The translations under genes and the position numbers were made by a program. Below, piece after piece: positions 44,449 through 64,000 of a stretch of 64,000 bases of DNA (the first letter of the stretch is position 1; each line of letters starts with the position of its first letter). The DNA comes from Brachybacterium sillae (GTDB lineage Bacteria > Actinomycetota > Actinomycetes > Actinomycetales > Dermabacteraceae): the NCBI RefSeq assembly GCF_025028335.1, contig NZ_JAFEUW010000001.1, positions 620,001 to 684,000 of the forward strand. The letters run 5' to 3'. A model generated the notes under the pieces. It saw only the letters and a list, made by a program, of their open reading frames with translations. It was not told where the DNA came from and did not search any database.

Positions 44449-45216
44449 TCAGCCCTCCGCGCGAAGGGTGCGCACAGCCTCCTCCGGGTCGCCGTCGAAG
44501 ACCACGGTGCCCTTGCGCAGCAGGACGATGCGGGAGCACAGGCGCTCGAGCATGTCCAGCTCGTGCGACACGATGATCATGGTGCGGCCCTGGGCCTGCA
44601 GCTCCTGGATCCGCGCGATGCATTTGCGCTGGAACGGTTCATCGCCGACGGAGAGGATCTCGTCGACCAGGAAGATGTCCGGATCGGTGTGCACCGCCAC
44701 CGAGAAGGCGAGCCGCAGGAACATACCCGAGCTGTAGTACTTCACATCGGTGTCGATGAACTGCTCGATCTCGCTGAACGCGACGATGTCATCGAACCGG
44801 GCATCGATCTGCTCGCGGGTCATCCCGAGGATCGCGCCGTTGAGGTACACGTTCTCACGGCCGGAGAGGTCCGGATGGAAACCGGCACCGACCTCGATCA
44901 GGCCCGCCACGCGGCCTCGCAACATGACGCGTCCCTCATCGGGGAACAGCACCCCGCTGATCGTCTTCAGCAGGGTCGACTTGCCGGAGCCGTTGTACCC
45001 GATGAGCCCGACCGTCTCCCCCGCCCGGACGGAGAGGTCGACATGGTCGAGGGCCAGGAACGTATCCCCCAGCGGTTTGCGCTGCAGTGCGGAGAACACC
45101 AGTTCCTTCAGGGAACGGTTGTGCCGCAGGGAGAACCGCTTCGTCATCTGCTCCACCCGCACCATCTCGCGGGCATCCGGTGTCGGCTCCGGCCGGTTCG
45201 TGGTCTCGATCTGCAC
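44449..45216 (-). CDS. Wzt-type ABC transporter ATPase (galactan/teichoic acid export)
   Basis: 255 residues. Walker A GYNGSGKST (73-81), signature YSSGMFLRLAFS, Walker B DIFLVDEIL, and the switch His in IIVSHELD. It is of the polysaccharide-export ABC class (TagH/RfbE/Wzt) but ends without a C-terminal glycan-binding domain, like the mycobacterial galactan exporter subunit. It should energise the Wzm permease encoded five bases upstream, flipping lipid-linked galactan across the membrane. GTG at 45216 follows GGAG. Confidence 0.92.
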   Translation of the reverse strand: MQIETTNRPEPTPDAREMVRVEQMTKRFSLRHNRSLKELVFSALQRKPLGDTFLALDHVDLSVRAGETVGLIGYNGSGKSTLLKTISGVLFPDEGRVMLRGRVAGLIEVGAGFHPDLSGRENVYLNGAILGMTREQIDARFDDIVAFSEIEQFIDTDVKYYSSGMFLRLAFSVAVHTDPDIFLVDEILSVGDEPFQRKCIARIQELQAQGRTMIIVSHELDMLERLCSRIVLLRKGTVVFDGDPEEAVRTLRAEG

Positions 45217-45221
45217 GCGCC

Positions 45222-46145
45222 TCAGAGCTCCTGGGCGAAGCGGCGCTTGGACCGTTCGAACACGAAGGTGCCGACGGCGAAGGTGGCGGCGGCGATGAGC
45301 AGCCCCACCCACCACAGCCCCGCCGCGTCGGTGCTCGCGAAGCTCGGATCGGCCGCCACAGCGGTGCGGGTGCTCGGCAGGTAGCGCCAGAACGCCGTGT
45401 GGAACAGCTCCACCACGATGGTCAGCGGGTTCAGTACGTACAACCACCACCACAGGGTGCCGCCGATGGCCTCCTCCACCAGAGCGATCCGATACATGAT
45501 CGGGCTGAGCCAGGTGGCGACCATGACGATCAGGTCCACGAAGTTCTCCACGTCGCGGAAGGCCGCATTGAAGGCAGCGGTCAGCAACCCCAGGCCGACG
45601 GTGAAGACCACCAGGATCAGCAATCCCAGCAGCAGTGCGCCGATCTCCACCGGCCCCGGACGCCAGCCGAACAGGGCCGCGCCCACCACCAGCACCAACA
45701 GCTGCGGCAGGAAATGCACCAGGGCCACCAGCATGCTGGACCAGGGGAACAACTCCGCGGGCAGATAGATCTTCGACACCAACGGCGCGTTGCCGGTGAT
45801 GGATCGGGTGGCGTTGCCGAACACCTCCCCGAAGAGGTTGATCACCACGATCCCGGAGAACAGATAGACGGCGTACGCCTCATCACCCTTGGACAGCTGC
45901 AGGAAGACCCCGAGCGCGATGTAGAACACCACGAACTGCACGGCGGGTTTGACGTAGCTCCACAGCATGCCCAGCACGCTGCCGCGGTACCGCACCCGCA
46001 GTTCCTTCCGCACCAGAAGGCGCAGCAGGAAGCGCTGGGTGATCGGGTTCAGCCAGCCGTCGTCCTGCCCGGGGGCGCGCCACCCCTCGGCCTGTTCGGC
46101 GCGGCTGGGTACCCGGGCCGCGGGGCGCGTCGCGGGGGTGCTCAC
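45222..46145 (-). CDS. Wzm-type ABC-2 transporter permease
   Basis: 307 residues with six membrane helices in ABC-2 arrangement and the family-typical RYRGSVLGMLWSYVKPAVQF coupling region, as in TagG/RfbD/Wzm. A cytoplasmic N-terminus of about 40 residues precedes it. GTG at 46145 overlaps the glfT2 stop as GTGA. Partner of the following ATPase; the pair matches Rv3783-Rv3781 of M. tuberculosis. Confidence 0.93.
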   Translation of the reverse strand: MSTPATRPAARVPSRAEQAEGWRAPGQDDGWLNPITQRFLLRLLVRKELRVRYRGSVLGMLWSYVKPAVQFVVFYIALGVFLQLSKGDEAYAVYLFSGIVVINLFGEVFGNATRSITGNAPLVSKIYLPAELFPWSSMLVALVHFLPQLLVLVVGAALFGWRPGPVEIGALLLGLLILVVFTVGLGLLTAAFNAAFRDVENFVDLIVMVATWLSPIMYRIALVEEAIGGTLWWWLYVLNPLTIVVELFHTAFWRYLPSTRTAVAADPSFASTDAAGLWWVGLLIAAATFAVGTFVFERSKRRFAQEL

Positions 46146-48193
46146 CGGGCCTGGTCGCCGTCACGGCGCGGCGCGGGATTCGCGGCGAACGTGCGCTCCC
46201 AGGCGGCGAACGACGTGATCTCCGGGGCGGCCTCACGGTAGCGGCGGCGAAGACTCTCCCACTGGCGGTACAGCTGCACGTGGGTGCCGACGGCCCGCGA
46301 GAGCATCGACCGGACCTGATCGGGCCGGCGCTTGTACCAGGCCACCTGGGTCCCCTCGGCGTTGGAGACGAGAACGCTGTCGTAGTGCGACAGCAGCCAC
46401 CAGCGGGCGTCCTGGTGCGGCACTGCGGCCTGAGGATGCTCCGCCGAGCGCTCCGTCGGCGGCACCGCCAGCTGTTTCACCAGCGTCTTCGCGGTCCAGG
46501 CGGGGAGCAGGGCGCGGCCGGGCTGGCTGAAACCGCGCCCTTTCCGCGGGGGCTTGTCGACGCGGATCTCCGGGTAGTCGTCGATGTCGCGAGCCATCGA
46601 GGCGTCGTCGTACTCGGCGGCCATGGCGCGGATCAGCGGCAGGCGGGTGCCGATCTCGTCGTGCAGCACCTCCGGTCCGCGCAGCACGTCCTGCTGTGCC
46701 AGTAGACGGCCGGCCTCGGTGTAGTACTGCATGGAGATCAGGTGCTTCACGTCCATGAACTGCGATTCCTTCACCACGCGGCCGCCGCGTGGGTACGGGG
46801 AGTGCAACAGGGCCGTGATGATGCGGTTGCGCTCATGGAAGTAGGCCTGCCAGCCGACGAGGTCGTCCTTGTCGACCCAGCTGACATGCCACACGCCCGC
46901 GCCCGGGAGGGAGACGGTGGGATATCCGGCGTTCTTCGCCCGCAGGCCGTATTCGGCGTCGTCCCATTTGATGAACACCGGCAGAGACAGGCCGATCTCC
47001 CGCACCACCTGGGTGGGGATCAGGCACATCCACCAGCCGTTGTAGTCGACGTCGGTGCGGCGGTGCAGCCAGGGGGTGGACCGCAGGGGGTCGAGGGCGA
47101 AGTCGTGGCCGAGCGTGGCCTCCTGCGAGGGCAGTGACGGCTGGATGCGCCAGCGGTCGACGATCTCACCGAAGGTGTGCAGCACCGAACGGTTGTTGAG
47201 GTCGAACATGTGGGCGCCGACCAGCGTGGGCCGGGTGCAGAAGTCCGCGAAGGTGGTCAGGCGCAGCAGCGACTCGGGCTCGATCACGATGTCGTCGTCG
47301 CAGTTCACCACGTACGTGGAGCGACGGGCGACGGCCGCCTCGTACATGCCGCGGGAGAACCCGCCCGAGCCGCCGATGTTCCCCTGCTCGATGATGGTGA
47401 GCTGATCTCCGAGCTCTCGCTGCAGCGGCGCGAGCCGGTCGGGGTGGTCCTGCAGGCGATCGGACCCCTGATCCACCACGTACATCGTGTCGAGCACCGC
47501 ACGGATGTCCTCGCTCTCGGCGATCGTGCGGATGTTGTCGAGGCAGTACTCGACCTTGTTCATCGTGGTCATGGCCAGCGAGATCCGGCCCTCGGCGCGT
47601 GCCAGCGCAGCATCGGCGGTCCACTCCGCACTGCGCACGACGAGGTCGTCCACCCCGGCGTGGACGTCGAACCAGTACCACCCGCCGTCGCCGAAGGAGG
47701 CCAGGGAGAGGTCCACGACGGTCTCCGTCTCCCCTTCGACGACACGAAAATCGACCCGCTGGATCGCACCGCGCGCGGTGGAGCGTTGGATGACGATGCG
47801 CCCCGGGCCACTGGTACGGATCGTGAGCCGCACCTCCCGCACAGGGGTCCAGCGCCGCCAGTAGCTGGCGGGGAAGGCGTTGAAGTACGTGCCGAAGGAC
47901 CGCATGGCCCGCGCCGGCACGAGCACACTGTGACGAGCCTGCAACTGGTCCAGCTCGACCTGGGATCGACCGGAGGCGGACAGGCGAGCGGCCTCCGCCG
48001 CCTTCTCCTTCACCGCGCTGCGTTCGGCGCTGCCGAGGCCGAAGGAACCTCCCGAGGCGCCGGACCGGGCGGTGTCCTGCTCGATGTACAGCGGCACGAT
48101 GTCCGGGGTCGCCTCCAGCGGCAGCAGCAGACGCTGGAGGAGGCGCCGCTCCCCCTGCGGGACGGTGCCGGTGGGGCCGGTGGTCGAAGTCAT
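46142..48193 (-). CDS. glfT2: GlfT2-type bifunctional galactofuranosyltransferase
   Basis: 683 residues. An N-terminal beta-sandwich (about 30-195) precedes a GT-A domain with the metal triad DDD at 299-301, a catalytic Asp pair at 411-412 (KWDDAEYGLR) and His436 in WHVSW; the Asp-to-His spacing of 24 equals that of M. tuberculosis GlfT2. A helical C-terminus follows. It polymerises galactofuranose with alternating beta-(1,5) and beta-(1,6) bonds from UDP-Galf. It is just downstream of glf, which supplies UDP-Galf. Confidence 0.95.
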   Translation of the reverse strand: MTSTTGPTGTVPQGERRLLQRLLLPLEATPDIVPLYIEQDTARSGASGGSFGLGSAERSAVKEKAAEAARLSASGRSQVELDQLQARHSVLVPARAMRSFGTYFNAFPASYWRRWTPVREVRLTIRTSGPGRIVIQRSTARGAIQRVDFRVVEGETETVVDLSLASFGDGGWYWFDVHAGVDDLVVRSAEWTADAALARAEGRISLAMTTMNKVEYCLDNIRTIAESEDIRAVLDTMYVVDQGSDRLQDHPDRLAPLQRELGDQLTIIEQGNIGGSGGFSRGMYEAAVARRSTYVVNCDDDIVIEPESLLRLTTFADFCTRPTLVGAHMFDLNNRSVLHTFGEIVDRWRIQPSLPSQEATLGHDFALDPLRSTPWLHRRTDVDYNGWWMCLIPTQVVREIGLSLPVFIKWDDAEYGLRAKNAGYPTVSLPGAGVWHVSWVDKDDLVGWQAYFHERNRIITALLHSPYPRGGRVVKESQFMDVKHLISMQYYTEAGRLLAQQDVLRGPEVLHDEIGTRLPLIRAMAAEYDDASMARDIDDYPEIRVDKPPRKGRGFSQPGRALLPAWTAKTLVKQLAVPPTERSAEHPQAAVPHQDARWWLLSHYDSVLVSNAEGTQVAWYKRRPDQVRSMLSRAVGTHVQLYRQWESLRRRYREAAPEITSFAAWERTFAANPAPRRDGDQAR

Positions 48194-48202
48194 GCCGCCT
48201 CC

Positions 48203-49414
<1,212 letters not shown>

Positions 49415-51574: not shown

Positions 51575-52849
51575 GTGGACTCACGCCCAGACACCCCGCC
51601 GCGCCGGCCCGGTCGACCGCACCGTCCGATGGGCCATCGGGCCCGCCCGGGGGGTTCCGTACGGGTCGTGCCCGGGGCGACGGCCCCCGATGCTCCCCGC
51701 GGGAGCGCACCCACCGGGCCGGGATCCACCGTGCGCACCGGATCGACGGTGCGACGGATCGGCCCCGCGACACCGGTGGCCGCAGAGCGACCGACCCGGC
51801 CGATGCCCCGGGTCGAGGCGGAGATCGGGGGTCCGCCGACCGCCGGTCCTCCGGCGCCCGCTCCCCGCCCCAGCGGTTCGCGGCCGTCGACACGGCGACG
51901 CCGCGGCATCCGCCGCATCCCCCGCCCGGTCCGGCAGGCGACCACGCTGCTGTGCCTGCTGCTGGTCATCAGCCTGGGATGGGGCATCGGGCTGGCGGGG
52001 TGGGCCGACAGCCGCATCGCGCATGTCGACGCGCTCTCCTCTGCTGAGGGAACCCGAGGAACCACGTACCTCATGGCCGGCTCCGACCGCCGCGGGGGCA
52101 CGACCGTCGCCGATGACGGCACCGAGGGGCAGCGTGCCGACACCATCATCCTTCTGCACCGCGCCCCCAACGGCCGCTCCTCACTGGTCTCGCTGCCGCG
52201 GGACACCCTGGTGGACATCCCCGGCCACGGGAGGATGAAGCTCAACGCCGCCTACGCCCTCGGTGGCCCCGCCCTGCTGGTGCGCACCGTCGAGGAGTTC
52301 ACCGGGCTGACGGTGGACCATTTCGTCGAGGTCGGGTTCGACGGCGTCGCCTCCCTGGTGGACGCCGTCGGCACCGTGAACCTGTGCATCGACCGGGATG
52401 TCGACGACCCCAAGTCGGGCCTGCGCATGACGCAGGGTTGCCATGACGTCGGCGGCGAGCAGGCCCTCGCCTTTGTGCGCGCCCGGGCCTTCGACCCCAC
52501 GGCCGACATCGGCCGGCAGCAGCGTCAGCAGCAGTTCCTGGCGGCACTGATGAAGCGCTCCGCCTCCCCCGGGGTGCTGTTCAACCCGGTGGCGCAGGTG
52601 CGGCTGGCCGGGGCCGGCTCCGCGGCGCTGCGCACCGACGAGCGCAGCGGCATCCTCGACGTCGGTCGCATGGCGCTGACGATGCGCGACGCGCAGAACG
52701 ATGGCCGGGTGCTGTCGATCCCCATCGAGGATCCGCAGTTCCGCACGCGGCACTCCGGGGTGGCGATCCTCACCGATGATGACGAGGTGCGGTCGTTCTT
52801 CGCGGGCATCCGCGACGGATCCGCGGAACCGCCCGGGACGACCGGCTGA
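51575..52849 (+). CDS. LytR-CpsA-Psr (LCP) family wall-polymer ligase
   Basis: 424 residues: a basic, Pro-rich cytoplasmic N-terminus (1-118), one membrane helix (121-143), and an extracellular LCP domain (about 160-320) with the conserved Asp/Arg cluster (LMAGSDRRGG, RADTIILLH, SLPRDTLVDIPGHG). LCP enzymes move polyprenyl-linked glycans onto peptidoglycan. Its position, divergent from the galactan operon, makes galactan or another polymer made here the likely substrate. GTG at 51575 follows GAGGAGAGAG. Confidence 0.93.
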   Translation: MDSRPDTPPRRPGRPHRPMGHRARPGGSVRVVPGATAPDAPRGSAPTGPGSTVRTGSTVRRIGPATPVAAERPTRPMPRVEAEIGGPPTAGPPAPAPRPSGSRPSTRRRRGIRRIPRPVRQATTLLCLLLVISLGWGIGLAGWADSRIAHVDALSSAEGTRGTTYLMAGSDRRGGTTVADDGTEGQRADTIILLHRAPNGRSSLVSLPRDTLVDIPGHGRMKLNAAYALGGPALLVRTVEEFTGLTVDHFVEVGFDGVASLVDAVGTVNLCIDRDVDDPKSGLRMTQGCHDVGGEQALAFVRARAFDPTADIGRQQRQQQFLAALMKRSASPGVLFNPVAQVRLAGAGSAALRTDERSGILDVGRMALTMRDAQNDGRVLSIPIEDPQFRTRHSGVAILTDDDEVRSFFAGIRDGSAEPPGTTG

Positions 52850-52913: not shown

Positions 52914-53621
52914 TCAGCGGAACAGCATGTCGATGACGATGTTCACCGAGTTCAGCACCGACTGGCCCTTGGACCGCGAATAGTCGGTGTAGAGGATGTG
53001 CACCGGGTGCTCCCGCACGGTGAGCTTAAGGCGTCCGATCTCCTCCACGAGCTCGGAGGCGTGCGCCATACGGTTCTGCTCGATGGTGATGCGCTCGCAG
53101 GCGGAACGACCGATCACCCGCAGGCCGTTGTGGGCGTCGGTGAGCTTCACCCCGCTGGTGAGGTTCGTGTACCAGACGGCGCCGCGCAGCACCATCCGCT
53201 TCAGCAGGCCCGGCTTCGTGCGGTTGTCGAGGAAGCGGGAGCCGAGCACGATGTCGACGCCCTCGGCCTCCCGCAGGGCGATCATCTCGGCGGCATCCTC
53301 CACCCGGTGCTGGCCGTCGGAGTCGAAGGTCACGACCTGCCGCATCATCGGGTCCCGCAGGGCGTAGTCGATGCCGGTCTTCAACGCGGCGCCCTGCCCC
53401 ATGTTGTAGGGATGGCGCACCACCGCCGCACCGGCCTCCGCGGCCGCCTGGGCGGAACCGTCGGTGCTGCCGTCGTCGACGCAGACGACGAGGGGGTAAC
53501 TGCGGCGCAGTTCACGCACCACATCCCCGACCACGGCCCCCTCGTTGAACAGGGGCATGACGAACCAGGTGGCGTCCGCCCCCGGCGCGGCAGTTTCGCG
53601 CAAAGGGTCGGAACTCCCCAT
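52914..53621 (-). CDS. DPM1/GtrB-like polyprenyl-phosphate glycosyltransferase
   Basis: 235 residues. GT2 core with VVCVDDGSTDGS, a DxD in VVTFDSDGQHRVED, and a catalytic Arg region (GSRFLDNRT). There are no C-terminal membrane helices. Such enzymes move a sugar from UDP or GDP to polyprenyl phosphate, giving the donor for outer-face transferases. The neighbours DUF2304 and the DUF6541-like protein commonly accompany this class. ATG at 53621 has an AGAGGAG site; a -10-like TCTAAT lies 24 bases upstream. Confidence 0.88.
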   Translation of the reverse strand: MGSSDPLRETAAPGADATWFVMPLFNEGAVVGDVVRELRRSYPLVVCVDDGSTDGSAQAAAEAGAAVVRHPYNMGQGAALKTGIDYALRDPMMRQVVTFDSDGQHRVEDAAEMIALREAEGVDIVLGSRFLDNRTKPGLLKRMVLRGAVWYTNLTSGVKLTDAHNGLRVIGRSACERITIEQNRMAHASELVEEIGRLKLTVREHPVHILYTDYSRSKGQSVLNSVNIVIDMLFR

Positions 53622-53644
53622 GAGGTCTCCTCTGGTCCTTGCTC

Positions 53645-53650
53645 ATTAGA
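53645..53650 (-). promoter_or_regulatory. Candidate -10 for the DPM1-like gene
   Basis: TCTAAT on the minus strand, five of six to consensus, giving a short leader before ATG 53621. Confidence 0.4.
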
Positions 53651-53767
53651 GCCTTGCTGATCCTCCGCGTGCATCAGCGAAGCGAGGTTGCTCGCAGAGG
53701 ATACCCTGAAGGCGTGGAAGAACTTCTTGACGTGCTGCGAGCAACAGTCGGCCCTGGGGGCCGCACA

Positions 53768-54133
53768 ATGATCATCCAGGCGCTCCTCATCGCGGGCATC
53801 GTGTCGATAGTTGCCTGGCTCTTCATCCACCGGGGAACCAAGCAGCTGGCCGTGCGCCGCTTGCTGGTGATCGCCTTCGCGTTGTTCGCTCTCCTCACCG
53901 TGCTGTTCCCCGCCATGCTCACTCGCGTCGCGCACATCGTAGGGGTCGGACGCGGAACCGACCTTCTGCTCTACGCCACAGTTCTGGTTCTGCTCGGCTT
54001 CCTCGCCCTGCAAGAGGCACGGACCAAGGATGCCGAAAAACGCACCACCCATCTCGCCCGACGCCTAGCCATCGATGAGGCCGAACCGGCTGCGCAGTAC
54101 CGCCAACGCTCGCTCAACACACACCACGGATGA
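53768..54133 (+). CDS. DUF2304-family membrane protein
   Basis: 121 residues with three membrane helices (about 2-20, 30-55 and 62-88) and a charged tail; matches the small DUF2304 family that accompanies polyprenyl-phosphate glycosyltransferases and may act as a flippase subunit. ATG at 53768 gives the usual MIIQALLIAG start. A GTG at 53714, six bases after a TACCCT hexamer, is an alternative leaderless start that would add 18 residues. Overlaps the next gene by four bases. Confidence 0.85.
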   Translation: MIIQALLIAGIVSIVAWLFIHRGTKQLAVRRLLVIAFALFALLTVLFPAMLTRVAHIVGVGRGTDLLLYATVLVLLGFLALQEARTKDAEKRTTHLARRLAIDEAEPAAQYRQRSLNTHHG

Positions 54134-56148
54134 GCGGCTTGCTCCAGTTTTCGCTGGCCGCCATCGCCGTTCTTCTGGTCGGTCACCTTCCGGGGTGGCT
54201 GACTGTGCGGACGCTGGGAGGGTCACGCCGTCTGGCTGTGGCGCTCGCACCTGCTTTGAGCCTGGCGATCGCAGGTCTCGGAGCCATCGGTGCCGAGTTG
54301 CTGCAGGTCCGCTGGAGCTGGATCGCCTTCAGCGCCAGCACCGTTGTGACTCTTGTGCTCGCCGTCGGATTGCGATCCTTGGGCCTGGCACTGCCCAATG
54401 TCGCGCTCGGCCCCGTTTCGGCCGAGCGCGACGCACCCGCCCAGCGCTGGATCTGGGCCGGAGCGATCATCGGAGGCCTCGCAGTGGCGCTGCTGCCGAT
54501 CGCTCAAGCGGCCGGTCGCCCCGACGCGATCCTGGAGCGCTACGACACACTTTTCCACCTCACTGCGCTGGCACACATCCGGTCAACGGGCAACGGGTCC
54601 AGTCTGACGCTCAACTCCATCGCCAGCACCTCCGGTGTTCCCAGGTCCTACCCGGCCGCCTTCCACGATCTGGTGGCCATCATCCCCAGCATTGAGATTC
54701 CCATCCTTCTGAACGCGTCCGTGGTCGTCCTGTCCACTGTGCCGTGGCTGGTGGGGATCGCCTTGCTGTCACGTGCCGTATTCCCGCGGGTGCCCTGGGC
54801 TCCTCCCGCGGCGGCGACGGTAGCTGCAGTCATCCCCGCATGCCCCCTGAACCTCTGGGTTCATTTGTCCCCCATCCCCAACCTCGTCGGCTTCGCCGCC
54901 CTACCGGGCGCGCTGGCAGCTGTGACGGCGTTGTGGAGTGCTTTGACTCAGTCGGCCACCCCGGTCTCAGACTCGGCGCTCCAGCGCGGGGTCAGGGCCC
55001 GTGATCGCGTCTCGACGTCGGCAACAGGCCGAGATCCAGCAGCGCGCCAGACCGGCGCCCGGAACGTGCTCGCGGCGGTGCTGCTGGTGCTCTTCGCGGG
55101 CATCGGGCTGACTTTGGCGCAGCCGAATGTCGCCGTCACCGCACTCATGCTCCTCGCTGTCCTCACAGCGGTGACGGGGGCTCCGCTGTGGCGTGAGCAC
55201 CCCGCCCTCGCGGTGCTGCCGATCCTGGCCATTCTGCCGGTACTTACACTCATGTACACCCCTGCGGGGTCCCGCATCACGGGGTTCACCGGGGGCCTGA
55301 GGGTATCGTTGACCACTGCCCTGATGGAGATCGGTCTCGGATTGCTCACGGTGTGGCCGATGGCGCTCGGTACAGCCATCGCGCTGCTGTGGTGGCCGGG
55401 GCTGGTCGTGGCGCTGCGCGAGAGGACGCTGCGTTGGGTGGGAGTCGCATGGATCCTCATCGCGGTCCTATACCTCGATGCCGCCGTGGACTCTCCCGCA
55501 AACCTGTCCATCCTGTACTTCCGTGGTCAGGACCGCCTTGCCATCCCGCTGGCCATGCTCTCCTGCCTCCTGACAGTTCCCGGTGCGCGCGCGTGGGGCT
55601 GCCGTCTGGAACGGACTCGGCAGGCGCCGCATCGACTCCGGACACGTTCTGCCGCCGCGATCGCGGCGATTGCGGTCGTCCTCGTGCTCACATCGATCCC
55701 TGCCCGGGCGGAGAACGCCGCGAAGAACTTCGACCCGGAGTACCCCGGTCGCGGCCGCTTCCTCCAGGCTGACGAGCGGGCTGCTTTCGCGCAGGCGGCG
55801 CCGGAACTGCGTAACGGTGGGGCGATTCTTGCCAGTCCCTACTCCGGCGCGGCCCACATGTTCGCGCTGCACGGGCTGCACGCCTACGTACCCGTGGCGG
55901 GCACCGCTCTCACGGAGGCGGACCTGCAGGTGATCCGCGCGGTCCCGATCGCGGGCCGCTCACCGCAGAAATGTCAGCTCCTGGAACAGCAGGGAATCGG
56001 CTACGTGTACGTGGAGAGGACCCTCTACCAGTACGACAACACGTTCACGCCCATCAGCCAGGGTGGCGACGACCTCGGAGAGGTCGTATTCACCACTGAC
56101 CACTCCCGTCTGATCCGCGTCGACTGTGCTGGAGCTCGCGAACTCTGA
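54130..56148 (+). CDS. DUF6541-like polytopic membrane protein (putative outer-face glycosyltransferase)
   Basis: 672 residues with about 12-14 membrane helices and a C-terminal extracellular domain. The first extracytoplasmic loop carries Asp residues (RYDTLFHLTALAHIRSTG) resembling GT-C enzymes that use polyprenyl-linked sugars. With DPM1-like and DUF2304 partners, it probably adds side-chain sugars to a wall polymer outside the membrane. The large loop near residues 280-310 is Arg/Thr-rich. The IS1634-type element is inserted 16 bases after its stop, so it is intact. Confidence 0.78.
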   Translation: MSGLLQFSLAAIAVLLVGHLPGWLTVRTLGGSRRLAVALAPALSLAIAGLGAIGAELLQVRWSWIAFSASTVVTLVLAVGLRSLGLALPNVALGPVSAERDAPAQRWIWAGAIIGGLAVALLPIAQAAGRPDAILERYDTLFHLTALAHIRSTGNGSSLTLNSIASTSGVPRSYPAAFHDLVAIIPSIEIPILLNASVVVLSTVPWLVGIALLSRAVFPRVPWAPPAAATVAAVIPACPLNLWVHLSPIPNLVGFAALPGALAAVTALWSALTQSATPVSDSALQRGVRARDRVSTSATGRDPAARQTGARNVLAAVLLVLFAGIGLTLAQPNVAVTALMLLAVLTAVTGAPLWREHPALAVLPILAILPVLTLMYTPAGSRITGFTGGLRVSLTTALMEIGLGLLTVWPMALGTAIALLWWPGLVVALRERTLRWVGVAWILIAVLYLDAAVDSPANLSILYFRGQDRLAIPLAMLSCLLTVPGARAWGCRLERTRQAPHRLRTRSAAAIAAIAVVLVLTSIPARAENAAKNFDPEYPGRGRFLQADERAAFAQAAPELRNGGAILASPYSGAAHMFALHGLHAYVPVAGTALTEADLQVIRAVPIAGRSPQKCQLLEQQGIGYVYVERTLYQYDNTFTPISQGGDDLGEVVFTTDHSRLIRVDCAGAREL

Positions 56149-56164: not shown

Positions 56165-57849
56165 CCTGAGTTGGACCTCTTTAGTGACCCATGCGTCAAG
56201 TCATCTTGAGGGCCTTGAGGATGGTGCGGGCATCGTCGGTGAGCTCGGCCTTGGCCGTGATGTCCTGGCCGGCCAGGGTGATGGTCACGTCCTGCAACGG
56301 CCGTAGGGTCCGGATGATCTTGCGGATGCTGAACCCCGTCTGGGCCTGCAGGAGACGGGCCATTGCCAGGGCGGTGAACACGATCGTGAGGTGAGCTTCG
56401 ATCGCGTCCCGCTGCCGATGAAACATGGGCCTGGCCTGTAGGTCCGTCTTGCTCATCCGGAAGGACTGCTCGACCTGCCACAGGTCGTGATAGCTGGAGA
56501 GCACCTCCGCCGCGGACATCACCGTCGCGGGGATGTTGGTGACGTAGCCCTTCAGCCCCACGAGGCTCCGTGCCCGCTTGAGGGAGGCTTCGTCGAGGCT
56601 GCGACCGGCCGCTGTGGTCTTCACGAACCGCGTCGACTTCACGGTCACGTCCCCGTCGATCACAGCGCGGGCTCGGTTCTCCTGCGCGGTCAGCGTGTGC
56701 CCATCCCGGGTCGCGCGTTTCTTCGAGAACGCCCAGACCGCCCGCCAGTGCCCGGGATGCTCCGTCGGGTCCCAGACCGGCTCCCGGCGGTGCTGCTTCG
56801 TGTCGGTTTTCGTGTTGCCGTGACGTGGGGTGATGGTGTCGATCAGCTGCCCGTCGGTGAACGCGTCACCGTTCCAGTGGAAGTGATGTGCAAGGTCACC
56901 AGGGGCTTTGACCTGCCGCGACCCGACGATGAACCGCAGTCCCGCTTCGTTAAGGGCGGTCAGGTTCGCGGTGGAGAGCATCCCGGCGTCAGCGACGACG
57001 ACCATGTCCGCCAGGCCGTGGCGGGCCTGGAACTGCTGGATGATCGGCACGATCGTCGTGGTCTCGGCCTTGTTGCCCTCGAAGCAACCGATCTCGAGCG
57101 GGAACCCGCCCCGATCCACCAGCAGCCCGACCACGATCTGCGGATCCACTCGGCGCTCCTTCGAGTAGCCGACCTTCCGCAGTTCGTCCTCGTGCTCGGC
57201 CTCGAAGTAGAGCGTGGTGACGTCATAGAGCACCAGAGAGATATCGCCGCTGGTCGAGGCATGTTCAAAGCAGTTCTTCGCTATCTGGTCGCGGTACTTG
57301 CACTGCTGGATCCGGGTCAGGCAGCGCTTCATCGTTGAACGATGCACCGGATCGATCCCCACCTCGCTCAGCACGCGAGCAGAGTCGAGCATCGAGGTCG
57401 GGAAGATCAAACGCGCGGCGACGAGCTGGAAGAACGCCTCGTCCTCGAGCGCATCGAAACCAAGCCCTCTCCAGGTCGCCTGGAGCACGTCCAGCAGCAA
57501 GCGCGACCGCATGGACCGCACCACAGCTGCCTGGGGATCCTGCTCCAAGCCGAGGTCGAGAGTCTCCTGACCAGCATTGAGCTTGTCCCGGCCGGCCCTC
57601 ATCAAAACAGCGAGCTCAGCCTCGGTATGCGCGGACCCGAGATGCTCAAGGATCTTGTTCCGCCGACCCTCCTTAGCGACCACCTGCACGGCAGTCGCGC
57701 CAGACGCCGTGGTCACCTTCCTCAAAAACGGGCTCACAACCCCCGACCCTACCCCCAATTAGTGACCCATCCAGCCACCCTGGAAACCCCACGACCAGCA
57801 GAAACGCTACTGAAATCTCTCAAACCAGGCCCGAGAGGTCCAACTCAGG
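56165..57849 (-). mobile_element. IS1634-family insertion sequence
   Basis: 1685 bases bounded by perfect 16-base inverted repeats CCTGAGTTGGACCTCT (56165-56180, and inverted at 57834-57849) and a five-base target duplication ACGGA (56160-56164 and 57850-57854). One intact transposase gene. It lies between the DUF6541-like gene and pseC. The element looks complete. Confidence 0.95.
56196..57737 (-). CDS. IS1634-family DDE transposase
   Basis: 513 residues. Catalytic Asp in LYDVTTLYFEAE, second Asp in MVVVADAGMLST, and Glu in YHDLWQVEQSFRMSKTDL, the DDE set of the IS4/IS1634 supergroup. GTG at 57737 (SPFLRKV) is preferred to a TTG seven codons upstream because family proteins start with MSPFVRRV-like sequence. 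Full length and free of stops, so probably active. Confidence 0.93.
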   Translation of the reverse strand: MSPFLRKVTTASGATAVQVVAKEGRRNKILEHLGSAHTEAELAVLMRAGRDKLNAGQETLDLGLEQDPQAAVVRSMRSRLLLDVLQATWRGLGFDALEDEAFFQLVAARLIFPTSMLDSARVLSEVGIDPVHRSTMKRCLTRIQQCKYRDQIAKNCFEHASTSGDISLVLYDVTTLYFEAEHEDELRKVGYSKERRVDPQIVVGLLVDRGGFPLEIGCFEGNKAETTTIVPIIQQFQARHGLADMVVVADAGMLSTANLTALNEAGLRFIVGSRQVKAPGDLAHHFHWNGDAFTDGQLIDTITPRHGNTKTDTKQHRREPVWDPTEHPGHWRAVWAFSKKRATRDGHTLTAQENRARAVIDGDVTVKSTRFVKTTAAGRSLDEASLKRARSLVGLKGYVTNIPATVMSAAEVLSSYHDLWQVEQSFRMSKTDLQARPMFHRQRDAIEAHLTIVFTALAMARLLQAQTGFSIRKIIRTLRPLQDVTITLAGQDITAKAELTDDARTILKALKMT

Positions 57850-57956: not shown

Positions 57957-59087
57957 TCAGGCGGTGGCGACCGCCTTGCGAACGGCCGCAATGACGCGCT
58001 CCACATCTGCGTCAGTCAGACCGGGGAACATCGGAAGCGAAATCTCCCGGCGGTAGTACTCCTCAGCCACCGGGCACATACCGCGCTGATAGCCGAGGTC
58101 CTCGAACACTGGATGCCAATAGGCGGGCATGTAGTTCACCTGGACACCGATCCCATCGGCCCGCAGCGCCTCGAAGATGGCGCGGCGCCGCTGCGCGGGC
58201 ACCCGCAGGGGGTACAGGTGCCACGCGGGCGCGGTGCCCTCGGGCTGAACCGGTAGATCCACGCCGTCCAGATCGACGAGGGCGTCGTCGTAGACACGCT
58301 TGATCTCCGCACGGCGCGCGACGAATGCGTCCAGACGCTGCAATTGATTGGTTCCCAGCGCACTGAGGACATCGGGCAGGCGGTAGTTCAGACCGAAGGA
58401 GTGCACCTCCTGGTGCCACGGCCCCTCGTCCGGGTACCGCTGCTGTGCACGGTCGCGAACCAGACCGTGGTTCTTGAACGCACGGGCCCGTGCCGCCAGC
58501 TCATCGCTCGCGGTGACCACCGCACCACCTTCCGTGGTGGTGAGATTCTTGGTGGGGAAGAACGAGTAGGCCGTGAGGTCCGCGAGCGAGCCGACGGGAA
58601 CGCCATTGCGCGTCGAACCAATGGAATGGGCGGCATCCTCCAGGAAGACGAGTTCCCTGCGCGTGGCGAGGTCGCGGAGCGCGGCAGAGTCCACGGGCAC
58701 GCCGGCATAGTCCACACCGGCGACCACGCGAGTTCGATCGGTGACGGCCGCCTCTGCCGCAACGGGGTCGAGACACCCGGTGCGCGGGTCGACGTCGGCG
58801 AACACGATCTTCGCGCCGAGCAGGGCCGCCGCGGCGGCGGTTGCCACGAACGTCAACGGTGTGGTCACCACCTCATCACCGGGCGAGATGCCAGCTGCCG
58901 CGTAGGCCACGTGCAGGGCGGCGGTGCCGGAGGTCACCGAGATCGCGTGAGGAACTCCAGCCCGCTGGGCGACGGCCGATTCGAAGCGGTCGACCTCAGG
59001 GCCCGTTGTCAGCCATTCGCTGCGCATCGTCCGCGCGACGACCTCGACGTCGCTGTCGTCGATGGACTGACGCCCGTACGGAAGCAT
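57957..59087 (-). CDS. pseC: PseC-type UDP-4-amino sugar aminotransferase
   Basis: 376-residue DegT/DnrJ/EryC1 aminotransferase. The PLP lysine is Lys180 in FFPTKNLTTTEGGA, and the PLP phosphate region is VTSGTAALH. Helicobacter PseC uses Lys183. It transfers an amino group from glutamate to the C4 keto sugar made by PseB. ATG at 59087 lies one base after the pseB stop; a longer upstream frame lies inside pseB. Confidence 0.9.
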   Translation of the reverse strand: MLPYGRQSIDDSDVEVVARTMRSEWLTTGPEVDRFESAVAQRAGVPHAISVTSGTAALHVAYAAAGISPGDEVVTTPLTFVATAAAAALLGAKIVFADVDPRTGCLDPVAAEAAVTDRTRVVAGVDYAGVPVDSAALRDLATRRELVFLEDAAHSIGSTRNGVPVGSLADLTAYSFFPTKNLTTTEGGAVVTASDELAARARAFKNHGLVRDRAQQRYPDEGPWHQEVHSFGLNYRLPDVLSALGTNQLQRLDAFVARRAEIKRVYDDALVDLDGVDLPVQPEGTAPAWHLYPLRVPAQRRRAIFEALRADGIGVQVNYMPAYWHPVFEDLGYQRGMCPVAEEYYRREISLPMFPGLTDADVERVIAAVRKAVATA

Positions 59088-59088
59088 C

Positions 59089-60078
59089 TCAGATACCTTC
59101 CTCGAGGATGGCGGCGATCTGCTCTCGGGTGTACCACTGGTCGTTCGAGTCGGAGCGGAAGTAGAACCCCTCCTCCACCGGGACTGCACCCTCCGGGGTC
59201 TTATAACCCCAGGTCGCGAGATCCGGCTGGATGATGAAGTACTTGCCGTCCCTGACGGTCACCGCGCGACGACCCTCCTCAGGGCTGATCATCTCTTCGT
59301 GGAGCTTCTCCCCGGGGCGCAGGCCAACGTCAACCATCTCGGCTCCCGGGACCACAGCCTGGGCCAAATCCGTCACCTTCATCGAGGGGATACGTGGGAC
59401 GAGCAGCTCACCGCCCTGCATGAAGTCGAACGTGGCGATGACCATCTGCACCGCCTGCGGCAGCGTGATGAAGAACCGGGTGCAGGCGAGGTCGGTGATG
59501 GGCAGCGGCTTGCCCTCAGCGCCCAGCTTCCGGAAGAACGGGATCACCGATCCGCGCGACCCCATCACGTTGCCGTAGCGGACCACCGCGAAGCGGGTGT
59601 CGTACGCCGCCGCGTAGTGGTTGCCGGTGATGAAGAGCTTGTCCGCGGTGAGCTTCGTTGCGCCATACAGGTTGATCGGGCTCGACGCCTTGTCGGTGGA
59701 GAGCGCAACAACCTTCTTCACGCCAGCGTCAATGGACGCCTCTATGACGTTCTGACTGCCCAGCACGTTCGTCTTGACGAACTCGAACGGGTTGTATTCC
59801 GCGGTGTCGACCTGCTTCAGCGCGGCAGCGTGGACGACGTAGTCGATCCCATGCAGGGCGCGGGCCAGCCGACGCTCATCCCGGATGTCACCGATGAACC
59901 AACGCAGACGTGGGTCGTTCCCGAAGAGGTTGCGCACCTCGTACTGCTTCAGCTCGTCCCGGGAGAACACGACGACCCGCCGCGGGTCATGGTTGTCCAG
60001 AACTTCGCGGAGGAAGGCCTTGCCGAAGGAACCGGTCCCCCCGGTCACCAAGATGGACGAACCACTGAAGACGGACAT
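59089..60078 (-). CDS. pseB: PseB-type UDP-GlcNAc 4,6-dehydratase (inverting)
   Basis: 329-residue extended SDR enzyme. NAD site GGTGSFG (13-19), catalytic Thr128-Asp129-Lys130, Tyr138 and Lys142 (LSTDKASSPINLYGATK). These match H. pylori PseB T131/D132/K133/Y141/K145 with a uniform offset of three. First step to pseudaminic acid: UDP-GlcNAc to the 4-keto-6-deoxy-L-AltNAc precursor. ATG at 60078 follows AAAGGG. The promoter region is shared with pseF (palindrome entry). Confidence 0.94.
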   Translation of the reverse strand: MSVFSGSSILVTGGTGSFGKAFLREVLDNHDPRRVVVFSRDELKQYEVRNLFGNDPRLRWFIGDIRDERRLARALHGIDYVVHAAALKQVDTAEYNPFEFVKTNVLGSQNVIEASIDAGVKKVVALSTDKASSPINLYGATKLTADKLFITGNHYAAAYDTRFAVVRYGNVMGSRGSVIPFFRKLGAEGKPLPITDLACTRFFITLPQAVQMVIATFDFMQGGELLVPRIPSMKVTDLAQAVVPGAEMVDVGLRPGEKLHEEMISPEEGRRAVTVRDGKYFIIQPDLATWGYKTPEGAVPVEEGFYFRSDSNDQWYTREQIAAILEEGI

Positions 60079-60136
60079 GCAGATCCCTTTCGACGTGGTG
60101 GAGGGAGACCGTCGTTGCCGACCGTCCCGGACTTCG

Positions 60137-60153
60137 CGTGCCATTATGGCACG
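60137..60153. promoter_or_regulatory. 17-base perfect palindrome between pseB and pseF
   Basis: CGTGCCATTATGGCACG, eight-base arms around a single T. It covers -10-like hexamers on both strands (CATTAT for pseF, six bases before its GTG; CATAAT for pseB) and ends at the pseF start codon. A strong candidate operator that represses both halves of the pathway. Confidence 0.65.
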
Positions 60154-60891
60154 GTGAATGCCGCACGGATCGTCGCTGTCATCCAGGCCCGCACGGGCTC
60201 GTCTCGTCTTCCGGGGAAGGTGCTACGGCCCCTGGCCGGGCGCCCCACCCTCGGGTGGATCGTACGGGCCGCCCACGCGGCGCGAGGCGTCGACGAGGTC
60301 GTGGTCGCCACCTCCACCGAGCCTGGCGACGACGCCGTTGCCGATCTGGCCTGTCAGCTTGGGGTGCGCGTGGTGCGCGGGAGTGAGAACGACGTCCTCT
60401 CCCGCTTCGCCCTGGCCATGCAGGAGACGGAGGCAGACGCGGTGGTGCGGCTGACAGCCGACTGTCCGCTAGCAGATCCGCACCTGATCTCCTCGGTGGT
60501 GGCGCTGTGGCGCACTGACCCGACCCTCGATTATGTCTCGACCACGCTGGTACGCACGCTGCCTCGCGGGCTGGACGCGGAGATCGCCTCCCGGGCTGCT
60601 CTGGAGATCGCCGATCGCGATGCGGAATCGTTCCATCGCATACACGTCACGTCGTACCTGTACGACAGCAAGCAGCTATTCCGCACCATGGGCGTCGTGG
60701 TGCAGCCGGCAGCGAACGATCTGCGGGTGACCCTGGACACTCAGGCGGACGCGGACCTGCTCGACGCCATGGTCGCCGAGCTCGGAGACCGGCCGCCGTC
60801 GTGGCAAGAGGTGGTGGATCTCCTGCGGTCCCGCCCCGACATCGCGATGCTCAACGCCGCCGTGCGGCAGAAGCGATTGACAGACGGATGA
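60154..60891 (+). CDS. PseF/SpsF-like CMP-nonulosonate cytidylyltransferase
   Basis: 245 residues of the CTP_transf_3 class. The CTP loop is QARTGSSRLPGKVL (11-24), followed by VVVATSTEPGDD, RGSENDVLSRF and the LTADCPLADP metal region. By position it should activate pseudaminic acid as CMP-Pse. It is more SpsF-like in sequence than KdsB-like, so an NDP-sugar role is possible. GTG at 60154 starts directly after the palindrome. The stop overlaps the pseGH start. Confidence 0.82.
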   Translation: MNAARIVAVIQARTGSSRLPGKVLRPLAGRPTLGWIVRAAHAARGVDEVVVATSTEPGDDAVADLACQLGVRVVRGSENDVLSRFALAMQETEADAVVRLTADCPLADPHLISSVVALWRTDPTLDYVSTTLVRTLPRGLDAEIASRAALEIADRDAESFHRIHVTSYLYDSKQLFRTMGVVVQPAANDLRVTLDTQADADLLDAMVAELGDRPPSWQEVVDLLRSRPDIAMLNAAVRQKRLTDG

Positions 60892-62396
60892 CACACATCG
60901 CGATCCGTTGCGATGCCAGCATGCACGGTGGTATCGGTCATCTGGTCCGGGCTCTCTCGGTCGCCGATGCCGCACGGAACGCCGGACACAGCGTCGTGCT
61001 CGCTGGATCGTTCGATTCCCCGCTCGCCGAGAGTCTGCTCCTCGAGGCCGCCCTGGAGACCGCGCCAGCACCGGAGGATCTGGGCGTCTTGGCCGCTGAA
61101 CAAGGGGCGAGCGTGGTGCACGTGGACAACTACGACATCGGCCCCGAGGCGCGCGCCCAGGTGTCCGTCAGCGGAGCATTGCTCTCTTCCATGGAGGACA
61201 GTACGTTCGGTCGGCGGCCCGCCGATGTCGTGATCGACTCGACGATCCACGCCGAGCGGGTCGGGCGGCCCGCGGACGGCAGCGGTGAGGTGTTGCTGGG
61301 GATCGCCTACGCACCGATGCGTGCCCAGGTACGGGAGGCGCGCGCTCATCGTGCCGCTTCTCCCCGGCCGCTATCCGACCGCGCTGACGTCCTGATCGTG
61401 ATGGGTGGCACGGACGCAATGGGCGCTTCCGCGACCATCGCCTCCGTGTGTGCACGTGCGCAGGGCATCGGCCGAATCCGTGTCATCTCACCTCAACAGA
61501 ACTGGGCGGCCGTGCGTGCCGAGGCGGGAGACGGAGTCGAGCTCATCACCCCGTCCCCCGAGCTCTTCGAACACGTGTGCACCGCAGACCTGGTGCTCAG
61601 CGCAGCGGGCACCACCGCCTGGGAGCTCGCCTGCATCGGCGTGCCGAGCCTTCTGGTGGCCGTGGTGGACAACCAGGTCGCGGGTTATGAGGCAGCACTC
61701 GAAGCGGGAGTGGCTCGCGGGCTGGGCACTCTCGATCAAGTGCGTCAGGATCCCGCGACCGCCGTTCGTCGCCTCGAGGCGGGCCTTGAGGATCTCCGCT
61801 CCGGCAATCCCTGGAGCACCGGTCGGAGAACGGTCGACGGTCTCGGGGCCGAACGGATCGTGGCCGCCTGGGAGGTAGCACTTGCTTCTCGTCTCGGTGG
61901 TGACTCCGCTGAGATCACTGCCCGGCCTGCGGGCCCCGGGGATTCGCTACTGCTGTTGCGTTGGCGGAATGATCCGGCGACCCGGGCCGTCTCGCGGTCC
62001 ACTGAACCTGTGTCCTGGGAAAGCCACCGCAGCTGGTACTACGGTGTGCTGCACCGATCGGATCGATGCCTGTACGTCGTCGAGCGGGCACAGACAGCCG
62101 TCGGTACGGTGCGTTTCGATAGGCTCGCCTCTGAGAACGAGGCGGGCTTTTCGGGCGCGGAGTGGGAAGTCTCCATCACTCTGGCACCAGAGGCTCGTGG
62201 TCACGGACTTGCCGGGGACGTGCTGGCGTCCGCGCAGCGTGTCTTCCTCGCCGACCACCCCGGGATCGTTCTGGTGGCGTCGATCCTGCCTGACAATGCG
62301 CCGTCGCAACGACTTTTCCGCCGAGCGGGGTACGTGCTCGACCCGAACCGCCGCGACGGCGCATTCGACGTATTCGTCAGACGAGATCCCAGGTAA
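60888..62396 (+). CDS. PseG-PseH fusion: UDP-sugar hydrolase plus N-acetyltransferase
   Basis: 502 residues joining two pathway enzymes. Residues 1-330 are PseG, a GT-B-like hydrolase that removes UDP; the catalytic His18 lies in GGIGHLVRAL, and the C-terminal substrate motif is SAAGTTAWELACIGVPSLL. Residues about 345-502 are a GNAT acetyltransferase like PseH (LRWRNDPATRAVS, then APEARGHGLAGDVLASAQ for acetyl-CoA), which acetylates the C4 amine of the PseC product. In most bacteria these are separate genes. The fusion makes consecutive steps (PseH then PseG) act on one polypeptide. 3' end overlaps pseI by 20 bases, tail to tail. Confidence 0.9.
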   Translation: MTHIAIRCDASMHGGIGHLVRALSVADAARNAGHSVVLAGSFDSPLAESLLLEAALETAPAPEDLGVLAAEQGASVVHVDNYDIGPEARAQVSVSGALLSSMEDSTFGRRPADVVIDSTIHAERVGRPADGSGEVLLGIAYAPMRAQVREARAHRAASPRPLSDRADVLIVMGGTDAMGASATIASVCARAQGIGRIRVISPQQNWAAVRAEAGDGVELITPSPELFEHVCTADLVLSAAGTTAWELACIGVPSLLVAVVDNQVAGYEAALEAGVARGLGTLDQVRQDPATAVRRLEAGLEDLRSGNPWSTGRRTVDGLGAERIVAAWEVALASRLGGDSAEITARPAGPGDSLLLLRWRNDPATRAVSRSTEPVSWESHRSWYYGVLHRSDRCLYVVERAQTAVGTVRFDRLASENEAGFSGAEWEVSITLAPEARGHGLAGDVLASAQRVFLADHPGIVLVASILPDNAPSQRLFRRAGYVLDPNRRDGAFDVFVRRDPR

Positions 62397-63450
62397 GCGG
62401 GGTGCCGCGCTGGACATCCTGGGTGAACGTGCGGCCGAGGACCACGTCCAGCCACCGCGGCTCGAGGCCACCGGACGGTCGAATCGAGCGAACGTTGTTC
62501 TCTGTGACAATGTCGCCGGCCGCAACATCGGCGGTGACGTACAGAGAGCGGCGGAGCCGCTGGCTTTCGGCTTCGCTCGCGGTGGGACCCACGTGCACGT
62601 CACCGATGGCAAGCCAGGCCGCGTAGGACTCGTCGACCAGGGCTTTGAGCTCGTGCGGCTCGAGGGAGAAATCGGCGTCCACACCTCCATCTGCGCGCCG
62701 CAGCGTCACATGCTTCTCCAGGATCGCAGCACCGAATGCGACCGCAGCGACACTGACCCCGATGCCCTTGGTGTGGTCGGACAGTCCACTGACCACGTTC
62801 CACGTGTCTCGCAGGACTGGGATGGTGCGAAGGTTCGAGGCCTCGGCACTGGCCGGATACGAGGAGGTGCAACCGAGCACGGCGATCCGGTCGTTACCCT
62901 CTGCGCGGATGGTCTTCACAGCTAGGTCCACGTCGCCGGCGTCGGCAGCCCCGGTGGAGAGGATTACCGGTTTACCGGTGCGGGCCACCCGTCGAAGAAG
63001 CGGAATGTCTCCGATCTCCAACGAAGCGATCTTGTAGACCTGAGTGTCGAGATCTTCCAAGAGATCGACTGCCGTGGCGTCGAACGGGCTGGAGAACGGG
63101 ATCATCCCGCGTTCGCGCGCGCGAGCGAAGATCGCCTCATGCCACTCCCAGGGGGTGTGGGCCTCCTGGTACAGGCTGTAGAGGTTTCGGCCGCCCCACA
63201 GGCCATGACTGTCAGTGATGCGGAATGCCGGCCCATCGGCGTCGATCGTGATGGTGTCTGCGGTGTACGTCTGCAGCTTGATGGCCGGAGCGCCCGCTTC
63301 GGCGATCGCGTCGACGATCTCGAGGGCGCGACCCAGATCTCCATTGTGGTTGCCGGACATCTCGGCCGCGACGAACGGACGGTGCGCCTCGCCGACGCTC
63401 AGGTCGCCGATCTGGATCTGTTGGGAAGAAGCGTTCTGGCTGGTAGGCAT
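62377..63450 (-). CDS. pseI: PseI-type pseudaminic acid synthase
   Basis: 357 residues of the NeuB family: a TIM barrel (about 20-280; AAEMSGNHNGDLGRALEIVD, IKLQTYTAD, KHVTLRRADGGVDADFSLEP) with a C-terminal SAF antifreeze-like domain (about 295-355; RRSLYVTADVAAGDIV). It condenses phosphoenolpyruvate with 2,4-diacetamido-2,4,6-trideoxy-L-altrose. NeuB and LegI relatives use other sugars, but PseB, PseC and PseG here point to pseudaminic acid. ATG at 63450; a TACGAT -10-like element ends six bases upstream. Confidence 0.92.
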   Translation of the reverse strand: MPTSQNASSQQIQIGDLSVGEAHRPFVAAEMSGNHNGDLGRALEIVDAIAEAGAPAIKLQTYTADTITIDADGPAFRITDSHGLWGGRNLYSLYQEAHTPWEWHEAIFARARERGMIPFSSPFDATAVDLLEDLDTQVYKIASLEIGDIPLLRRVARTGKPVILSTGAADAGDVDLAVKTIRAEGNDRIAVLGCTSSYPASAEASNLRTIPVLRDTWNVVSGLSDHTKGIGVSVAAVAFGAAILEKHVTLRRADGGVDADFSLEPHELKALVDESYAAWLAIGDVHVGPTASEAESQRLRRSLYVTADVAAGDIVTENNVRSIRPSGGLEPRWLDVVLGRTFTQDVQRGTPLTWDLV

Positions 63451-63456
63451 GCGCAG

Positions 63457-63462
63457 ATCGTA
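63457..63462 (-). promoter_or_regulatory. Candidate leaderless -10 for pseI
   Basis: TACGAT on the minus strand six bases before the ATG at 63450, in the 58-base gap after the next gene. Confidence 0.4.
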
Positions 63463-63508
63463 CCGGAGCGGGGCGGCTGATTCCGAGGTGTGAGCGGAGC
63501 CCCCCCGC

Positions 63509-64000
63509 TCAGGTCCGCCCCGCGGAGCGGACGAGATGCACCAGACACCGCCGACACTCGGCACTGACGAGGTCCACACACTCCTCGTAGAGCGCGGTGA
63601 AGTCGATTCATGGGGGAGGCGATGATCGTGGAGTTGGACGTCAGCCCGTCGGTGCTGGTCCGGCTCCCCGCGGTGCGACAGAGATCGTTCTCGGGGGCTG
63701 AGCCCGAGCAGCCAGATCGGCGTGCCGACCTCTGCGGGCAGTTCGATCGAGGCTGTGCTCAGTCCGCTCACCAGGTCCATCGAGGCGGCAAGGACTGCCA
63801 GCCCCTCGGAAGCGTCGTCGAAGAGATCTATGTCGGTGATCTGCCGGACCCCGTGGGCATCCAGGAGTTCGGCGTCTGCTACCCCGAGACCATGCTGGAG
63901 GGACCAGAACTCGACTCCGTCGGCATCCAGCAGGGGCGCCAGCTTTTCCAGGCCGAGGTACATCGTCCGGCGCGAGGCGCTGACGAGGTGGCTGGTTGAG
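63509..64000 (-). pseudogene. C-terminal part of a glycosyltransferase-like protein, frameshifted, cut by window edge
   Basis: The 5' end lies beyond position 64000. Visible sequence reads YLGLEKLAPLL, then VEFWSLQHG and ELPAEVGTPIWLLGLSP, which resembles the C-terminal domain of TPR/heptosyltransferase-like proteins. The frame then shifts twice: after GLSPR at a five-base G/C run (63693-63697), continuing ENDLCRTAGSRTSTDGLTSN, and again near 63606-63612, continuing IDFTALYEECVDLV to a stop at 63509. Both shifts need one base removed. Either a decayed gene or two sequence errors. Possibly a transferase using CMP-pseudaminic acid; unproven. Confidence 0.55.

Follow-up and report, generated by a model that had tools for sequence, protein, structure and literature searches.

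A probable pseudaminic acid cassette beside wall-glycan genes in Brachybacterium sillae, and a candidate glycosyltransferase family that follows it

Pseudaminic acid (Pse) has mostly been studied on flagella and Gram-negative capsules, Pse-bearing wall polymers occur in Kribbella, and to our knowledge few enzymes that attach Pse are known. Here we describe a 64,000-nucleotide stretch of the Brachybacterium sillae genome (the window; positions 620001-684000 of contig C1 in a two-contig, 2.67-Mb genome), which carries a probable five-gene Pse cassette at window positions 57957-63450. The gene run extends ~8.6 kb beyond the window end and includes a gene for a 336-residue protein, termed X below, that is our main candidate for the cognate transferase.

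A close described pathway is the PseB-C-H-G-I-F route of Helicobacter and Campylobacter: the same six steps are predicted here, with PseB, PseC and PseI above equivalog cut-offs, whereas PseG and PseH are fused and divergent, an SpsF-type enzyme replaces PseF, no flagellin is matched, and wall-polymer genes adjoin the cassette. The Pse loci described in other Gram-positives, namely Geobacillus and B. thuringiensis (PMC5109656) and Clostridium (PMC13317340), serve flagellin. The sps pathway of B. subtilis, in which SpsC-SpsG and SpsM make legionaminic acid (PMC7439481), resembles the cassette in its SpsF- and SpsG-type enzymes and uridine diphosphate (UDP)-linked intermediates, but the PseB and PseI found here are of the pseudaminic type. 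A similar setting is that of the teichulosonic acids, wall polymers of Kdn (2-keto-3-deoxynononic acid) and galactose in Streptomyces coelicolor (PMC7831098, PMC11481543), where a nonulosonic acid pathway likewise accompanies wall-galactose polymer genes in an actinobacterium; the difference is that Pse, not Kdn, is predicted here, and that the polymer is a prediction from gene context. A search of open PubMed Central for Pse together with teichulosonic acid returned one paper, whose accessible text contains neither the word teichulosonic nor Kribbella.

Gene content of the cassette and the predicted sugar

The cassette consists of the following genes (window coordinates; aa, amino acids).

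57957-59087, minus strand: PseC-type aminotransferase, 376 aa, pyridoxal phosphate lysine K180 (TIGR03588, PF01041)
59089-60078, minus strand: PseB-type inverting UDP-N-acetylglucosamine (UDP-GlcNAc) 4,6-dehydratase, 329 aa (TIGR03589, 2gn4)
60154-60891, plus strand: SpsF-type cytidylyltransferase, 245 aa, GTG start, assigned the PseF role of cytidine monophosphate (CMP)-Pse synthetase (PF02348, 95.9 bits)
60888-62396, plus strand: PseG-PseH fusion, 502 aa, one frame (TIGR03590, TIGR03585; profile matches to 3hbm and 4xpk)
62377-63450, minus strand: PseI, predicted pseudaminic acid synthase, 357 aa, NeuB barrel and SAF domain (TIGR03586, 8h2c)

The genes pseC and pseB run leftward, the cytidylyltransferase and fusion genes run rightward, the stop of the one overlapping the start of the other, and pseI runs leftward, converging on the fusion gene with a 20 bp overlap at their ends. 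The listed open reading frame of PseI reaches 63963; its stretch past 63450 is not PseI and enters a degraded neighboring gene. Each of the six Pse activities proposed in the first-pass annotation has a candidate gene within these limits.

The pathway genes were scored against NCBIfam equivalog cut-offs. PseB passes the inverting 4,6-dehydratase model TIGR03589 (460.4 bits, cut-off 407.75) and PseI passes TIGR03586 (451.6 bits, cut-off 340.25), while PseC exceeds TIGR03588 marginally (423.9 bits, cut-off 423.5). The closest solved relative of PseB is the Helicobacter enzyme 2gn4 (E 2.2e-101), to which residues T128, D129, K130, Y138 and K142 align, and PseC carries lysine K180; for PseB this agrees with the match to Helicobacter first annotated. 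The offset of three reported for PseB agrees as well, provided that the 2gn4 chain bears an 11-residue tag, which, like the Helicobacter numbering, is our assumption. The cytidylyltransferase reaches 37 bits with the PseF equivalog (cut-off 205.7) and is of SpsF type, its role being assigned by context. Two genomic matches exceed the cut-off of PF02348, and this enzyme is the sole long one; the second covers 36 residues at another nonulosonate locus. The candidate assignments of PseG, PseH and PseF, all three below their equivalog cut-offs, rest on domains, residues and context.

The scores of PseB and PseI favor Pse as the predicted product. PseB gives 342.7 bits with the solved Helicobacter PseB and 228.1 with the next solved chain. 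Among solved structures PseI matches C. jejuni PseI 8h2c best (255.1 bits), ahead of B. subtilis SpsE (185.6) and NeuB (126.8), and its 451.6 bits with the PseI model compare with 265.9 for NeuB_NnaB. These values agree with the earlier call of a pseudaminic rather than neuraminic pathway, and by these scores PseI does not group with legionaminic or neuraminic synthases.

The PseG-PseH fusion

The fusion joins a UDP-sugar hydrolase half (residues ~1-325) to a GNAT acetyltransferase half (~340-490), which are PseG-like and PseH-like only: the protein gives 102.4 bits with the PseG equivalog TIGR03590 over residues 3-265 (cut-off 153.55) and 29 bits with the PseH equivalog TIGR03585 over residues 354-485 (cut-off 93.1). 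When 20 fusion proteins are combined into a profile, its first half finds C. jejuni PseG 3hbm (E 3.4e-9) and its second half C. jejuni PseH 4xpk (E 4.4e-9). Residues H18 and N262 correspond to H17 and N255 of PseG, which we take to be catalytic, and F477, invariant across the 20 rows, occupies the position of a tyrosine in C. jejuni PseH.

The first-pass annotation regarded this arrangement as unusual and as part of an undescribed system; it is indeed not common, but the claim of novelty is not supported. Proteins named by NCBI 'bifunctional UDP-2,4-diacetamido-2,4,6-trideoxy-beta-L-altropyranose hydrolase/GNAT family N-acetyltransferase' have the identical full-length two-domain build with no difference of substance, and a visible name of this 'bifunctional ... 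hydrolase/GNAT' form was carried by 14 among the 120 fusion homologs listed. Homolog searches scored the 8000 candidates sharing most words with the query, 465 of which passed E 0.001; the closest, among the matches listed, are 67% identical. From named genomes 71 loci were fetched using two patterns drawn from the fusion, and 45 have both halves in a single frame, a proportion that is not a frequency because the patterns came from the fusion itself. The fusion was ruled out as a novelty on the NCBI name and these 45 loci. Of 394 evenly drawn class genomes, three gave a match that spans most of the query in a single frame, a lower bound given the few candidates scored. Several actinobacterial families share the fusion, yet it is not common. 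Among the fused loci longer than 20 kb (n=38), PseB and PseC are present in all 38, PseF in 37 and PseI in 36.

In a tree of PseG sequences from the window and from 66 of the 71 loci (five omitted, their PseG hits being short or missing) the fused and split labels change four times, so that a single origin of the fusion is not shown, the deep part of the tree being unsure owing to long branches. Actinobacteria contribute 22 split rows, and a single supported group unites 21 of them (mainly Amycolatopsis and Prauserella); the remaining one, Labedaea, is placed just outside it, and fused Actinophytocola and Pseudonocardia rows are close by. Amycolatopsis loci often have PseH as a gene of its own close to PseI. 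A fused frame is also present in a Rhodospirillales metagenome bin (L099:9902-11401), separate from the actinobacterial rows in the tree. Among the titles, abstract openings and passages covered in open PubMed Central, no study of the fusion or of Pse in Brachybacterium came up, which is not proof of absence. The fusion could serve to pull earlier steps forward, since PseH turnover is expected to increase PseC flux in vitro (PMC7910423).

Candidate transferases and the wall-glycan neighborhood

To the right of the window lie, in order, the degraded gene, X, a large glycosyltransferase family 4 (GT4) protein, a TuaG-like family 2 glycosyltransferase (GT2; below cut-off) and an ATP-binding cassette (ABC) exporter that is TagH-like by its ATPase. 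Window numbering is continued here past the window end.

64824-65834, minus strand: X, 336 aa, homologs named 'hypothetical'
65838-69293 (L003:9838-13293): 1151-aa protein, GT4 domain followed by a C-terminal domain that has HP and STS motifs and no Pfam match above cut-off
63539-64921 (L003:7539-8921; window part 63539-64000), minus strand: degraded gene flanked by PseI and X, traced by tblastn with the protein of locus L059

X is the new lead from this analysis: its family has no name, accompanies nonulosonic acid genes and is predicted to fold like GT-B enzymes. X, PseI and the fusion co-occur in an identical set of nine of the 47 family genomes, and each of the 14 strong X genes in the 394 class genomes has a NeuB-family gene no more than 15 kb away (a match in genome G306, E 9.7e-4, is excluded from this count). 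Among the fetched loci, 18 of 71 have X. X of this genome gave no Pfam match, 32 members of its family gave weak ones only (best E 0.009), and a profile search of the PDB gave no match at E up to 10; in fold comparison of the predicted structure TagF is the top-ranked match. The (K/R)XHP donor motif of sialyl- and Kdo (3-deoxy-D-manno-oct-2-ulosonic acid)-transferases was not found in X, where H135 is invariant, the residue after it is variable and C133 occupies the K/R position; one transferase in PMC12887879 likewise lacks the K/R of this motif. X would share its proposed donor, CMP-Pse, with the Acinetobacter pseudaminyltransferase KpsS1 of family GT118 (PMC12887879); X itself has no Pfam or PDB sequence match. 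We propose that X is a CMP-nonulosonate transferase.

The neighbors within the window are as follows.

44449-46145, minus strand: polysaccharide ABC exporter placed with the galactan genes, TagH/Wzt-like ATPase and Wzm-like permease (PF00005, PF01061)
46142-49360, minus strand: GlfT2-type galactofuranosyltransferase (PF17994, PF19320) and UDP-galactopyranose mutase (TIGR00031, 339.9 bits, cut-off 303.75)
51575-52849, plus strand: LytR-CpsA-Psr (LCP) glycopolymer ligase (PF03816, E 1.4e-43)
52914-56148: PpgS-like GT2 (minus; NF058614, 262.1 bits, below the cut-off of 370), DUF2304-like small protein (plus) and DUF6541 membrane protein (plus; PF20176)

The DUF2304-like call comes from a match of the small protein to the PF10066 protein of locus L111. 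All three genes at 52914-56148, the DUF6541 gene included, recur beside Pse cassettes. Both exporters match NCBIfam exporter models (the first, teichoic-acid and galactan exporter models) below cut-off only. The galactan neighbors named by the first-pass annotation are real, and its link to the wall gains from two observations: 10 of 45 fused loci have at least one of GlfT2, mutase and Wzm in the flanking DNA fetched with them, and a second ABC exporter comes after the Pse genes here. One correction is needed: since the mutase is above cut-off in 45 of 47 family genomes and PseI is present in 9 of 47, galactan looks core and Pse accessory. Seven of the carriers belong to the window's genus, and in these PseI and the mutase are 11.2-13.0 kb apart; in the two carriers of another genus they are on different contigs or ~594 kb apart. 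The window was first noted to lack flagellar genes; across the genome, a search for flagellin PF00669, which was positive for four of the 14 control genomes, gave no match.

The PpgS-like and DUF2304-like pair occurs at 11 of 45 fused loci: at 10 of the 18 with X (L056, L057, L059, L064, L068, L071, L074, L076, L089 and L111) versus 1 of the 27 without. Helcobacillus (L062) has the same order as here (PseC-B, F-GH, I, X, GT4, GT2, exporter), the degraded gene being missing. At L068 and L111 a PF01943 flippase-like gene lies by X, with no match to the TagG/TagH pair of this locus; a gene between PseI and X at L071 resembles the L068 flippase-like gene at its start.

The degraded gene is in five pieces and three frames that cover residues 261-737 of the L059 protein, its first ~260 codons being unmatched; intact copies of ~740 aa are found at the related loci L056 and L059. 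It seems dispensable, because L057 and L062 keep the Pse genes, X and GT4 without a match to it. An insertion sequence (IS) transposase of the IS1634 family lies at window positions 56196-57758, between the galactan cluster and the Pse cassette. Elsewhere in the genome, a second nonulosonate synthase locus (G000:C1:1381608-1383656; L004) encodes a CBS-NeuB-SAF-TIM-barrel protein; the cytidylyltransferase that precedes this NeuB-type protein is cut to 36 matching residues, and nearby reading frames look transposase-like by eye.

Proposed route, rival explanations and significance

Taken together, the Pse cassette is real and probably complete; it belongs to a type already known and is set here among wall-glycan genes. 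Sequence shows its gene content, the equivalog status of PseB, PseC and PseI, the conserved active-site residues, the co-inheritance of X with the Pse genes and the wall-gene neighborhood; from these we infer the enzyme activities, Pse5Ac7Ac as the product, X as the transferase, a wall glycan as the acceptor and the role of the exporter. We consider it likely that the cassette makes CMP-Pse of the 5,7-diacetamido type from UDP-GlcNAc, and that a transferase, most likely X, adds the sugar to a surface glycan that is exported and fixed to the wall. PseB would dehydrate UDP-GlcNAc with inversion at C5 and PseC would aminate C4. The PseH half of the fusion would then acetylate the product and the PseG half of the same protein remove UDP, placing steps 3 and 4 on a single chain. 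PseI would condense the sugar with phosphoenolpyruvate, and the SpsF-type enzyme would form the CMP sugar. The transferase would pass it to a glycan built with the adjacent GT4 and GT2 enzymes, which the neighboring TagG/TagH-like transporter would export before an LCP ligase attaches it to the wall.

The most serious competitor for X, though on balance a doubtful one, is the C-terminal domain of the 1151-aa protein, which might transfer Pse itself while X acts as a polymerase or on another substrate. This domain has an HP motif and, further on, G-x-x-S-T-S (invariant P372, H373, G412, S415, T416 and S417); an HP motif belongs to the donor site of CMP-sugar transferases (PMC12887879), and the top fold match of X is a teichoic acid polymerase. 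However, where (K/R)XHP has a lysine or arginine, the HP motif of the domain has neither, and the domain has matches above 40 bits at 6 of 71 loci compared with 18 for X. The alignments of X and of this domain have no profile similarity, and homologs of the 1151-aa protein occur in Brachybacterium, Humibacter and Xylanimonas. Attachment of Pse to a surface glycoprotein, such as an S-layer or pilus protein, instead of a wall polymer is unlikely: known Pse is often protein-bound, for instance on flagellins (PMC7591256), and the flippase-like genes of L068 and L111 would fit such a route, but the genome has no flagellin match, galactan genes, LCP and ABC exporters adjoin the cassette here, and L068 is itself among the ten fused loci with galactan-gene neighbors.

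Regarding the sugar, it is improbable that the genes yield CMP-legionaminic acid or another C5 epimer by a route like that of sps with its UDP-linked intermediates, SpsF and SpsG. In favor of this reading, the cytidylyltransferase is of SpsF type, which by itself would not settle the product given that sps leads to legionaminic acid, and the PseG half scores far short of the PseG equivalog; against this stand the 'inverting' equivalog passed by PseB and the preference of PseB and PseI for their Helicobacter and C. jejuni counterparts over the next solved dehydratase and SpsE. Decay of the cassette into a locus out of use is very improbable. The remnant by PseI, the IS1634-family transposase and the truncated cytidylyltransferase of the second locus point that way, yet X, GT4, the exporter genes and all five Pse genes keep open frames, and L057 and L062 combine Pse genes, X and GT4 with no match to the remnant.

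Brachybacterium, Arthrobacter, Sinomonas and others carry such a cassette close to wall genes, with a patchy distribution. The X family follows it, in the same nine of 47 family genomes and with a NeuB-family gene linked to every one of the 14 strong class matches, and offers a directly testable transferase candidate, and the cassette also supplies a natural PseG-PseH fusion open to assay. Tentatively, and with somewhat less than even confidence, we suggest that X founds an undescribed actinobacterial glycosyltransferase family through which CMP-Pse, and perhaps other CMP-nonulosonic acids, may build or decorate a wall glycan, a Pse counterpart of the Kdn teichulosonic acids in hosts without flagellin.

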